A stretch of 64,000 nt of DNA from Thermoanaerobaculia bacterium (GTDB taxonomy: Bacteria > Acidobacteriota > Thermoanaerobaculia > Gp7-AA8). The notes beneath the pieces are model-generated. The model ran no database searches and was not told where the DNA came from. It was given only the letters and a program-made list of their open reading frames with translations. Below, piece by piece: positions 7,662-61,529 of this stretch; the stretch's first letter is position 1; each line of letters begins with the position of its first letter. A program made the position numbers and the translations under genes. The stretch is taken from contig JADGNZ010000021.1 of assembly GCA_017883205.1 (NCBI GenBank), positions 1 through 64,000 of the forward strand, in the 5' to 3' direction.

Positions 7662-7672
7662 GCGCTTGCGAG

Positions 7673-8050
7673 GCGTTCGCGCTTGACATCGCCGGCAGGG
7701 ACTTCGTAGTGCAGGCATTCTTGCCTGCTACCGTTGGACGTCCTCGCCCGACGGGATCGTCCCCTATCTTCGAAATCGTGCGCGTCGCGACGTTTCGGGC
7801 GGAGTGTCAGTTCCGAACTGCGAAGAGTTTGCGCTTAGCACCGCCGGGCAGGCACTTCGTAGTGCAGGCATTCTTGCCTGCTACTGTTGGGCGTCCTCGC
7901 CCGACGGGATCGTCCCCTATCTTCGAAATCGGGCGCGTCGCGACGTTTCGGGCGGAGTGTCATTTCTGAATCGCGAAGAGTTTGCGCTTAACACCGCCGG
8001 GCGGGGACGCCCGGCGGGAGCAGGCAGGAATGCCTGCGCTACATTCGCAT
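7673..8050. repeat. 152-153 bp tandem duplication carrying REP-like hairpins
   Basis: Units begin at 7673, 7825 and 7978 with the shared start GAGTTTGCGCTT (GCGTTCGCGCTT in the first). Units 1 and 2 are nearly identical over 152-153 bases; unit 3 is partial and has its hairpin block reversed. Each unit contains GCAGGCATTCTTGCCTGC, or the complement, followed by GGGCGTCCTCGCCC-like sequence, the hairpin family also seen at 702-847. Together with the flanks it fills the gap 7662-8074. Open frames across it are products of the repeat. Confidence 0.85.
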
Positions 8051-32712: not shown

Positions 32713-33533
32713 TCGCGGCGGCGTTTCTGCTGGCCGCGCTGACGTTGCCCGAGGTGCCGGCGGGTGCGCCGGTCGACCGCGGCGAGTTCCTCTACGCACG
32801 GCCTCTCGGCACCATCCCAGCCGGCATCGTCTTACTCACGCTCGATGCTCACGTTCTGCTGCGGAGTCACGCGCTTCAGGACGTGCGGATGGTCGACGCG
32901 AAGAGCAATCAGGTGCCTTACCTCGTCGTGCCGCTGCCGGCGCCAACGATCGTCTCGCTTTCGATTCCGCCCGCTACCCGTGAAGGGAAGCAATCCGTCT
33001 ACAGACTGACACTTCCATACGAGTCCTTACCCGATGGCACGGAGCTGGAGCTGACTACGAGCGCCGACGTGTTCGAGCGAGACGTCGTTCTGCGCCGTCC
33101 GCTTGATGAGAGCCGCGGCCGCGAGGCTACGGTGATCGATCGAGTGAGTTGGAAAAGTTCGCCTTCGCTGCGAACCAATCTCACGAGCGGACGCGCGATC
33201 GAAGTGGTCGTCGATGAAGGCGACAACGCGCCGCTGCCGATCGTCTCCGCGAAGCTGCGGCTGCCCAGCTTCGCTCTCCGATTCGTCAGCCCCGGGAGGC
33301 CGTTAGCGCTGCTGTACGGCAATTCATCGATCGCCGCGCCACGCTACGACCTCGCGCTCATTTCATCGCAGCTCGTTGGACAGCCCGCGCGTTTGATCGC
33401 GCTCACCGGAGAACCTTCGGCCGAACCGCCGGCGAAGCATCGGGAGTCGCGCCTTTTCGGGATCGCGATCGGCGTGGCCGCCGCCGTTCTGCTGATCGTG
33501 CTGGGACGCCTCGTCAGCGCGCAGCGGTCCTGA
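32709..33533 (+). CDS. DUF3999-like exported membrane protein
   Basis: This encodes 274 residues with an N-terminal signal (IAAAFLLAALTLPEVPAG), a beta-rich exported part (YARPLGTIPAGIVLLTLDAHVLL, LQDVRMVDAKSNQVPYLVVPLP) and one C-terminal membrane helix (GIAIGVAAAVLLIVLGRLV). The VRMVDAKSNQVPY stretch and the position after a DUF2339 gene point to the DUF3999 group. The start is GTG at 32709, overlapping the upstream stop. Its end overlaps the opposing membrane-protein gene by 20 bases. Role unknown. Confidence 0.78.
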   Translation: MIAAAFLLAALTLPEVPAGAPVDRGEFLYARPLGTIPAGIVLLTLDAHVLLRSHALQDVRMVDAKSNQVPYLVVPLPAPTIVSLSIPPATREGKQSVYRLTLPYESLPDGTELELTTSADVFERDVVLRRPLDESRGREATVIDRVSWKSSPSLRTNLTSGRAIEVVVDEGDNAPLPIVSAKLRLPSFALRFVSPGRPLALLYGNSSIAAPRYDLALISSQLVGQPARLIALTGEPSAEPPAKHRESRLFGIAIGVAAAVLLIVLGRLVSAQRS

Positions 33534-33870
33534 AGAACCGAGTGCGCTCGGCAAGGCTCCACGTGGTGGCGACGCGGCGCGCCGTCCATCGAGGGATCGA
33601 GCGCGCAAGCCAGAGATAGGCGATCAGCATCACGTTCAACCCGACCACGACCATCAGCGAATCGCCGCGGTCGAGGAAGGGGACGTGCACGCCCGGAACG
33701 CGAAGAAAAAGCCCGTCGACGCAGACGAGGAGCAGGAAATCGACGGTGTCGCGAACGCTCGCGCGTCGGCGTGCCCTTGCGACGACGACACGCGAATCGA
33801 TAACGACGGGAGGGGGTACGGCGGCGTCTGAAACGCCGGGTAGCAGAGTGCGTCGAACGGGCTTCTCCAT
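33514..33870 (-). CDS. Small membrane protein of unknown function
   Basis: This encodes 118 residues with one or two membrane segments (TVDFLLLVCVDGLFLRVPG and LMVVVGLNVMLIAYLWLA) after a basic Pro/Val-rich N-terminus. I do not recognise the family. The start at MEKPVRR is chosen because the frame further upstream enters the terminal inverted repeat of the 33.9-34.7 kb element. The last 20 bases overlap the end of the opposing DUF3999-like gene. Confidence 0.55.
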   Translation of the reverse strand: MEKPVRRTLLPGVSDAAVPPPVVIDSRVVVARARRRASVRDTVDFLLLVCVDGLFLRVPGVHVPFLDRGDSLMVVVGLNVMLIAYLWLARSIPRWTARRVATTWSLAERTRFFRTAAR

Positions 33871-33940
33871 CGCAATGTGTTCGACGCGCAGGGGAGGTGC
33901 GTTATTCCAAATAACCGATTTCACGGGTGTCGTAGAGACG

Positions 33941-34693
33941 AGGGGGTCGGGGGTCGGAGTGAGGGGTTGCTGAGCTGCCTGTGTTACTGGGTAGCGCGTC
34001 AACTAACGTCAACGTAATGAGCAGGTTAAAGGAGAGTTCGGTCGAACTCAACGTCCCTGGTCCAGCAACACATCGACTTGGTCAGTCGACCAGGTGTTCC
34101 TGGCTCCCCAACCACATTCACTTGGTCAGTCGACCAGTTGGTCCTGGTTCCCCAACCACATTCACCTGGTCAGTCGACCAAGTGTTCCTGGTTCCCCAAC
34201 CATATTCACCTGGTCAGTCAACCAGGTGCTTTTGGTTCCCCAACCACATTCACTTAGTCAGTCGACCAGGTGCTCCCGGTCCGCAACCTCATTCACCTGG
34301 TCAGTCGACCAGGTGCTCCCGGTCCGCAACCTCATTCACCTGGTCAGTCGACCAAGTACTCCCGGTCCGCAACCTCATTCACTTGGTCAGCGACCAGGTG
34401 CTTCTGGTTCCCAACCACATTCACTTGGTCAGTCGACCAAGTGCTTCTGGTCCGCAACCTCATCGACGTGGTCAGTCGACCAGGTCCTCCTGGTCCGCAA
34501 CCTCATCGACGGGGTCGGTCAACCGGGACCTCCTGGTCCGCAACCTCATCGACGGGGTCGGTCAACCGGGACCTCCTGGTCCGCAACCTCAAATGGCCTC
34601 AACTTGTAATCTGAAACCTCAACAAAGTGGCTAAGCAACCGAGCAATTCGGCAACCCACCAGCCTTACTCCGACCCCCGACTCCCGACCCCCT
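33941..34693. repeat. Composite repeat element with flanking inverted repeats
   Basis: AGGGGGTCGGGGGTCGGAGT (33941-33960) recurs inverted at 34667-34693 with one 7-base insertion. Between these arms lies a 12-unit tandem array. The element fills nearly all of the 830-base gap between the membrane-protein start and the DUF5666 gene end, stopping 9 bases short of the latter. No transposase or other gene is inside; open frames are repeat products. Confidence 0.7.
34078..34600. repeat. Tandem array, 12 palindromic units of 43-44 bp
   Basis: The core GGTCAGTCGACC or a variant begins at 34080, 34124, 34168, 34212, 34256, 34299, 34342, 34385, 34427, 34470, 34513 and 34556. The period drifts from 44 to 42-43. 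Each core can form a hairpin, at best CCTGGTC/GACCAGG around AGTC. One unit uses CTTGG with matching CCAAG. The remainder of each unit is TCCTGGTTCCCCAACCACAT in early copies and CCCGGTCCGCAACCTCAT later. The last two units are the most divergent (GGTCGGTCAACC). Confidence 0.92.
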
Positions 34694-34701
34694 AAAAGCG
34701 C

Positions 34702-35979
34702 CTACCGAATCCTCACCGTCTGCGCGATGTAGTTTCCATCTCCGTCACGATAGGCCTTGATCACGACCGAGTCGCCGGCGCGGAGTCTGGCGGCGGTCGA
34801 CAACGTGCCCGCTTTGGTGCGGATGGGCAGGTCATCGAGCGCGTAGACGCGCGTGATCAACCGGTCGTTCTGCGTGTCGCGCAGCACGAGTTGCGGGCTG
34901 TCGGCGAGAGTCTGCGTCACGATGCCGTAGATCGTCACAACGCCGAGGTCGGCTAACGAGCGCGCTGGGACGGTGTTGATCGAGGGTGCGGGCGCGGCTC
35001 CGTTTTCATCGGTGAAGCGCAGAGTCGTTGCCACAAACGTCGATCCCGTGTACGAGCCGCTGAGCTCGACCTGATCGCCTGCCTGCACGTCGCGCGCGCG
35101 AACCGGCTTGCCGTCGGGATCGGTAGCCGCGCGAAGATCGACCGCAACCGAGCCGCGGCCGCCATCGACCTGGATGACGTTATTGCCTCGATCGACGCGC
35201 GTCACGCGGCCGCTCAATGCACCGACACCATTCGATCGCGAGCCCGACTCCCGCGCGCTCTGCGTGACCTCGATCGATCGTGCGCTGAGGTCGGTTCCGG
35301 CGGCGCCAGCATCGATCTCAACACGAATCCGGTCGCCTACGTCGAGGTTCGAGATCCGATAGGTGTCGCCGTGATAGCGGACGGGTGTTCGTTGCGGCGT
35401 GCGCACGGTAAGCACTTCGCGTTGATCCGTCACGATGACCAGCCGTCCGGCCTCAGCGTTGATCTGCTGCAGGACGCCTTCGACACGGCCCGGGCGATCG
35501 GGGACGGTGCTCGGCCTCGTGCCTGATGCGGTTGGCGTCGAGACCGACATCGGCGTGCGAGTCTGTCCTACGCCCGTCTGCGGTGCCTCGACCGGCCGCC
35601 CGAGCAGGGTTATGCGCTCGGCGCGAACGACGTTCCCTCCGCCCGCGGTGCCACGCACCTCAATCCTGTCGCCAACACGGACGTTGTTGAAACCGCTGGA
35701 CCCCATGAAGATCTCCGGCGCGCCGTTGATCGTTCCGCCGAAGCCGTTGTACTGGGTCGACACCGAATCGGTGTCGATGGTGACCTGATCGCTGAGCGCA
35801 TCATCGGGAGTGACGATGATGCGGTCTCGACCGGTGATCGTGTCCGCAACCGTCCCGGTGATGCTCCCGCGTCCGCCTTCCTGCACGTCCGCACTCGTCC
35901 GCCAGACAGTACGATCCTGTCCAAAGGCGGCGACAGTAGTGAGCGCCACGAAGATGAAGACCGCTCGTATTTGTTTCAT
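34702..35979 (-). CDS. Exported DUF5666-type repeat protein
   Basis: This encodes 425 residues with a signal peptide (MKQIRAVFIFVALTTVAAFGQD). The mature part has four or five small beta-rich repeats of the DUF5666 kind, each with a pattern like GRVTRVDRGNNVIQVDGG followed by VRVGDRIEVRG or VQAGDQVELSG. They begin near 35, 165, 250, 345 and 380. Such domains resemble OB-type barrels; their ligand is unknown. The protein probably acts in the periplasm or outside. No operon partner is visible. Confidence 0.82.
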   Translation of the reverse strand: MKQIRAVFIFVALTTVAAFGQDRTVWRTSADVQEGGRGSITGTVADTITGRDRIIVTPDDALSDQVTIDTDSVSTQYNGFGGTINGAPEIFMGSSGFNNVRVGDRIEVRGTAGGGNVVRAERITLLGRPVEAPQTGVGQTRTPMSVSTPTASGTRPSTVPDRPGRVEGVLQQINAEAGRLVIVTDQREVLTVRTPQRTPVRYHGDTYRISNLDVGDRIRVEIDAGAAGTDLSARSIEVTQSARESGSRSNGVGALSGRVTRVDRGNNVIQVDGGRGSVAVDLRAATDPDGKPVRARDVQAGDQVELSGSYTGSTFVATTLRFTDENGAAPAPSINTVPARSLADLGVVTIYGIVTQTLADSPQLVLRDTQNDRLITRVYALDDLPIRTKAGTLSTAARLRAGDSVVIKAYRDGDGNYIAQTVRIR

Positions 35980-61266: not shown

Positions 61267-61518
61267 AAATGAGAATCCATGAACGGTAAATGAGAATCCA
61301 TGAACGGTAAATGAGAATCCGTGAACGGTAAATGAGAATCCGTGAACGGTAAATGAGAATCCGTGAACGGTAAATGAGAATCCGTGAACGGTAAATGAGA
61401 ATCCGTGAACGGTAAACGGGAATCCATGAATGGGAAATGGGAATCCGTGAATGGGAAACCGGATCACATGAATGGGAAATCAGATCACGTGAGCGGGAAG
61501 TCGGAACCCGTGAACGGG
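61267..61518. repeat. Tandem array, 12 units of exactly 21 bp
   Basis: Twelve units of 21 bases run without a gap. The first seven are nearly identical (AAATGAGAATCC, then A or G, then TGAACGGT). The last five drift toward GGGAATCC, GGATCAC and TGAATGGG or TGAACGGG. A weak thirteenth unit merges with the next repeat. The array is AT-richer than its surroundings. It lies between mnmE and mnmG, 167 bases from a parS site. Because 21 is a multiple of three, reading frames with a VHGFSFT repeat cross it, but no gene is likely. The flank 61101-61266 shows nothing else clear. Confidence 0.95.
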
Positions 61519-61529
61519 AAGAGAGAACG

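Follow-up and report, generated by a model that had tools for sequence, protein, structure and literature searches.

Evenly spaced palindromes in a tandem array of a Thermoanaerobaculia bacterium as possible helically phased protein-binding sites

Introduction

Iterons of plasmid and secondary-chromosome replication origins are binding sites of 11-22 bp set at about two helical turns. Subirana and Messeguer described bacterial tandem repeats whose sequence varies but whose length is constant, at 20-21 nt or, in Firmicutes, at 52 nt (PMC8161180), and a related survey is available (PMC6749651). Only some species carry such repeats, with several species-specific families per genome, and the 52-nt class contains short characteristic sequences, often together with their reverse (PMC8161180). 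A length of 20-21 nt corresponds to two helical turns, and a polymerising protein or small RNAs were proposed without evidence for either; transcription is reported for the 52-nt arrays of B. coagulans (PMC8161180). Alternating repeats are also found in TIGR arrays, whose units each combine two repeats with two ~10-nt spacers (PMC12045711).

Here we analyse a tandem array in a 64,000-nt stretch of DNA (the window; positions 1 to 64,000 of contig JADGNZ010000021.1, forward strand, assembly GCA_017883205.1) from a Thermoanaerobaculia bacterium. A sequence-only reading of the window had called the type of array unrecognised. It matches the enigmatic class already described in PMC8161180, and arrays of this class occur genome-wide, so that the window array is not unique. 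Every testable feature of the class fits except a clear genome-wide signal sequence: units of 20-21 nt with multiples near 40, unrelated families in one genome, non-coding location, species-specific and patchy occurrence among relatives, and a short sequence plus its reverse within a unit. Unlike the earlier cases, the host belongs to the Acidobacteriota and the unit is a 43-bp dimer with two dyads. To the published description we add an explicit comparison of dyad and spacer conservation and one family that takes the form of a dispersed element in several copies. The host genome is an unusually dense case of these enigmatic repeats.

Results and discussion

The palindromic tandem array is real, and TRF and unit alignment confirm the 12 units of the sequence-only reading. 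That reading had placed the array at 34078-34600 with a period of 43-44 bp; TRF delimits it to 34056-34588 on the forward strand (period 43, 12.3 copies, 88% matches), the units are spaced at 42-44 bp, and degenerate units extend the array to ~33966-34665. In the unit alignment each unit is a dimer consisting of a 12-bp dyad termed B (GGTCAGTCGACC), 10 bp, a single 11-12-bp dyad termed A (GGTCCGCAACC or GGTTCCCCAACC) and a further 10 bp. The first B dyad (GGTCAGTCGACC) lies at 34080-34091 and the first A dyad (GGCTCCCCAACC), 10 bp after it, at 34102-34113, both on the forward strand. B dyads start at 34080, 34124, 34168, 34212, 34256, 34299, 34342, 34385, 34427, 34470, 34513 and 34556, with successive spacings of 44, 44, 44, 44, 43, 43, 43, 42, 43, 43 and 43 bp. 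The single step of 43-44 bp claimed earlier missed the second dyad. Because this dyad sits at the unit midpoint, the real step is ~21.5 bp, and the true repeat is one of two alternating half-units; 10-bp spacers and 11-12-bp dyads thus give a dyad-to-dyad spacing of 21-22 bp, close to two B-DNA turns.

A core sequence had been attributed to every unit. A dyad does occur in all 12, but the exact GGTCAGTCGACC in only 7; the proposed 7-bp hairpin likewise corresponds to a stem whose length in the best units is 9 bp (CACCTGGTC/GACCAGGTG). Units differ in length through their dyad cores, which measure 12 or 11 bp, and the spacers are constant. The end units are degenerate, adjacent units are most alike, and units 11 and 12 are nearly identical; resemblance between neighbours is the pattern of any tandem array growing through local duplication. 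The degenerate left edge (33966-34055, forward strand) is homologous to the left flank of a second array on contig C57 (blastn, alignment), and the degenerate right edge (34589-34660, forward strand; CTCAAATGGCCTCAAC...GGCAACC) aligns with the right edge of the same array.

A protein repeat was rejected, as it had been before, since the period is 43-44 bp, frames change between units and the array lies between genes. CRISPR was rejected in the same way, as unique spacers are absent. The alternation of two repeats with two ~10-nt spacers per unit resembles TIGR arrays (PMC12045711) and could be read as a TIGR-Tas or CRISPR guide-RNA array, an idea that we regard as exceedingly improbable. The Nop domain (PF01798) occurs in 0 of 18 genomes of the family, with a positive archaeal control; the spacers inside the window array are near-copies (67% identity) rather than unique; and dozens of arrays per Mb stand in the genome, none beside a recurrent gene. 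CRISPR is excluded, and TIGR-Tas effectively so.

The 6.37-Mb host genome (G000) contains two further arrays with these dyads, which were compared with the window array (C32 in these comparisons). The C57 array (C57:5343-5699) lies on the same strand and is 82% identical to it, and the array at C35:43716-44006, on the opposite strand, is the diverged paralogue. As C32 and C57 have degenerate flanks in common on both sides, they are copies of one element. More distant relatives are an array on C16 and one array in a congener, G002. The exact two-dyad pattern was found in 0 of 148 other genomes of the class (149 searched, own genome only) and was absent from viral contigs. At L017:5692-6021 on C57 lies a 330-bp piece from the 3' part of a DUF2400 gene. 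It starts exactly at the array edge and shares 91.5% identity with the intact copy, which is on C2.

Between C32 and C35, dyad identity is 88% and spacer identity 26.5%, which is approximately random; in the consensus sequences 21 of 23 dyad positions agree as against 6 of 20 spacer positions (Fisher 8e-5). Every spacer nevertheless remains 10 bp, and the second keeps some similarity between arrays (TCAT). Inside each of the three arrays, too, spacers vary more than dyads do (P = 1e-5, 9e-5 and 0.008). Palindromes that are kept while the spacers between them change freely suggest a regular series of protein-binding sites. The sequence-only reading had noted the even spacing and proposed binding sites, and this is still the best reading. 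We give somewhat less than an even chance to its full form, in which helically phased protein-binding dyads are carried by dispersed, non-coding intergenic elements.

The same contrast between conserved dyads and free spacers recurs in a second family, TGAGT-CNNN-ACTCA, which is unrelated to the window dyads. It forms a dispersed element of ~0.5 kb present in six copies in G000 (L286-L291, on C100, C92, C82, C35, C42 and C1), and G002 carries one copy (L292). Each G000 copy begins with a left end of which at least 60 bp are conserved, continues with 14-17 array units and closes with a right end conserved over ~105 bp. Its outer ends are ragged, with nested 5' starts at 0, -6, -71 to -76 and -111, an arrangement reminiscent of 5' truncation. 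With the unit register set from arm positions, which leaves little room for bias at constant spacing, the GAGT/ACTC arms have an entropy of 0.17 bits and the spacer 1.14 bits over 93 units in G000 (0.09 and 0.83 bits in the G002 copy). Spacing is exactly 21 bp in 87 of 87 steps in G000 and in 12 of 13 in G002.

Matched stem changes had been cited as a sign of pairing. Both are present, CCTGG..CCAGG in units 4 and 6 and CTTGG..CCAAG in unit 9, but within C32 and C57 covariation at the cited pair is no better than permutation (P = 0.60). When the whole B stem is taken over the three arrays, 85.2% of cells are paired as compared with 74.8% in shuffled data (0/500), and two other arm pairs are paired beyond permutation in C32 and C57 (P = 0.0015 and 0.02). 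Between arrays, four pairs of the B outer stem are altered on both sides and slid controls score lower, figures that derive from few independent events.

These compensatory changes over three arrays, strong predicted folding (RNA z -10) and the transcription of the 52-nt arrays of B. coagulans are all in line with a structured RNA, in which array transcripts would fold into successive hairpins and serve as a sponge, as small RNAs or as a 3'-end structure. Folding as DNA is equally unusual (z -8.4), however, which is expected of any array of dyads. The variable innermost pair is broken as C-A or C-C and never as G-U, and gives the RNA reading no support. Arrays also stand in both orientations to neighbouring genes, no promoter-like site occurs at the array, and Rfam yielded no match beyond a chance-level mir-341. 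A structured RNA is therefore quite improbable in our estimation.

In an effort to define the class across the genome, arrays were counted in 872 kb sampled from G000 if they measured at least 80 bp and had a period near 21 bp or a multiple of it. There were 39, but one of them is in fact a heptamer array, leaving about 38; contigs not picked for dyads held 28 in 649 kb, a sample density of ~43 per Mb. The overall figure of ~40 arrays per Mb, likewise derived from genome samples, compares with 29 in the 4.36 Mb of B. weihaiensis, although search settings differ. Two arrays of the class but of different sequence lie in the window itself, at 1742-2017 and 61267-61527 (both period 21/42, TRF), the latter related to a C73 array by family comparison. 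Intergenic arrays of at least three copies in the G000 sample have periods of 7-9, in a few cases 13-17, and then 20-22, 41-43 and multiples, while the range 23-40 is empty.

Within the genome the arrays split into many unrelated sequence families. Dyad symmetry is enriched over shuffled units across the class (combined P 5e-10), although not significant in many individual arrays, and the dyad arms vary less than the remainder across 46 arrays (Wilcoxon 8e-4). A search for a signal common to all arrays gave no k-mer above the shuffled maximum in G000; pooled over species, a few pass it, and only marginally (CATCG, CATCGA). Arrays occupy convergent, co-directional and divergent intergenic regions in both orientations, show no promoter preference and have no gene family recurring beside them. 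Iterons differ from this picture, which is one of hundreds of dispersed arrays with many sequences, and no candidate replication initiator gene was present among the neighbour genes examined.

By malate dehydrogenase, the closest named relatives are MAGs of Thermoanaerobaculia and of group 7 Acidobacteriota. The arrays are dense in G000, in its congener G002 and in G009 of the same family. None was found in a 286-kb sample of the congener G001 or in sampled G010, G012, G016 (G009's genus), G005, G006, G011 and G013. Their absence from a congener and other family members argues against an essential role. As intergenic palindromes in many copies they recall REP elements and their RAYT transposases; unlike these, they are tandem at a fixed period and fall into many unrelated families. 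REP/RAYT is an unlikely explanation, since Y1_Tnp transposase genes occur in genomes with and without arrays, and their counts do not follow array presence.

To the right of the window array lies a DUF5666 domain protein gene (34702-35979, reverse strand; Pfam, orthologues), and the array is downstream of its stop codon. To the left is a small membrane-protein-like gene (33514-34002, reverse strand; gene model, position conserved in relatives), whose start is probably near 33872. The element is bracketed by an inverted pair of heptamer repeats, recognised from sequence on the forward strand, with the left arm (GGGGGTCGGGGGTCGGAGTGAGG) at 33942-33964 and the right arm (CCTTACTCCGACCCCCGACTCCCGACCCCCT) at 34663-34693. 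At the orthologous site in G001 and G002 only the heptamer inverted pair is present, without the array; here such a pair has the element sitting between its arms. Heptamer inverted pairs (GGGGGTC/GGGAGTC... with ...GACTCCCGACCCC) adjoin the stop codon downstream in the window and at both orthologous sites, and may serve as 3'-end hairpins. Heptamer arrays are frequent throughout the family and also occur in genomes without 21-bp arrays.

A site that is empty in two congeners is also what selfish or neutral satellite DNA would leave: hairpin-prone units of ~21 bp amplified through replication slippage or repair, with no function for the cell. Quasi-palindrome correction would match the arms, and whole blocks would be copied into new intergenic positions through recombination or by transposition machinery acting in trans. 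Patchy presence (dense in three genomes, none found in eight sampled family members), degenerate edges with gradual change along the array, the truncated DUF2400 copy abutting the C57 array, the ragged 5' ends of the six-copy element and intergenic location without promoter preference all agree with such an origin. It leaves unexplained the kept dyads with randomised spacers of constant length, and the restriction to periods of ~21 bp and multiples. For the neutral minisatellite that the sequence-only reading had set against a function, the comparisons are mixed: the congener sites are empty and other genomes of the class lack the tandem dyads, while the paralogues keep dyads and spacing. A neutral minisatellite should not keep both as its spacers randomise. 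Satellite DNA is the main rival, a serious but doubtful explanation.

With phased protein binding, successive dyads, one per step of ~21.5 bp, would all look to the same side of the DNA helix, and a DNA-binding protein that is homodimeric or polymerises could occupy them side by side. A dimeric, sequence-specific protein on one helix face would explain the fixed spacing, the conserved dyads and the free spacers together. Phasing would be the selected feature, and the inferred effect is to organise the chromosome or to propagate the element, not to regulate neighbouring genes. Array length would change by gain or loss of whole units, and copies are dispersed over other intergenic sites. Their dispersal in blocks, together with the patchy presence among relatives, points to arrays that move as elements and that the cell can do without. 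The analysis identified no binding protein, and since the dyads of different families are unrelated, one sequence-specific protein cannot bind them all. It seems unlikely, if conceivable, that the arrays form a bacterial satellite-DNA system whose proteins, a set that sister species gain and lose, polymerise on dyads with a phase of two helical turns. If true, hundreds of dispersed arrays would give a heterochromatin-like chromosome organisation, with each family co-evolving with its binder. The contrast between dyads and spacers makes phased protein binding a testable claim, for which the arrays supply bait sequences. The genome also has sister species that differ in carrying arrays or not, and two families in which conserved dyads and spacing are separated from free spacers.

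Other repeats were seen alongside the ~21-bp class. At 7668-8002 of the window, 2.2 copies of a 153-bp unit, with 91% identity, lie between converging genes. On C73, palindromic repeats of the CTTTCAACTTCAGACCTGACCCC type adjoin a Y1_Tnp gene (76882-77178) at C73:75957-77426 (L051), likely a REP/RAYT locus, and C73:79036-94842 (L051-L052) contains long coding arrays of a 264-bp repeat (~88 aa) in very large proteins.
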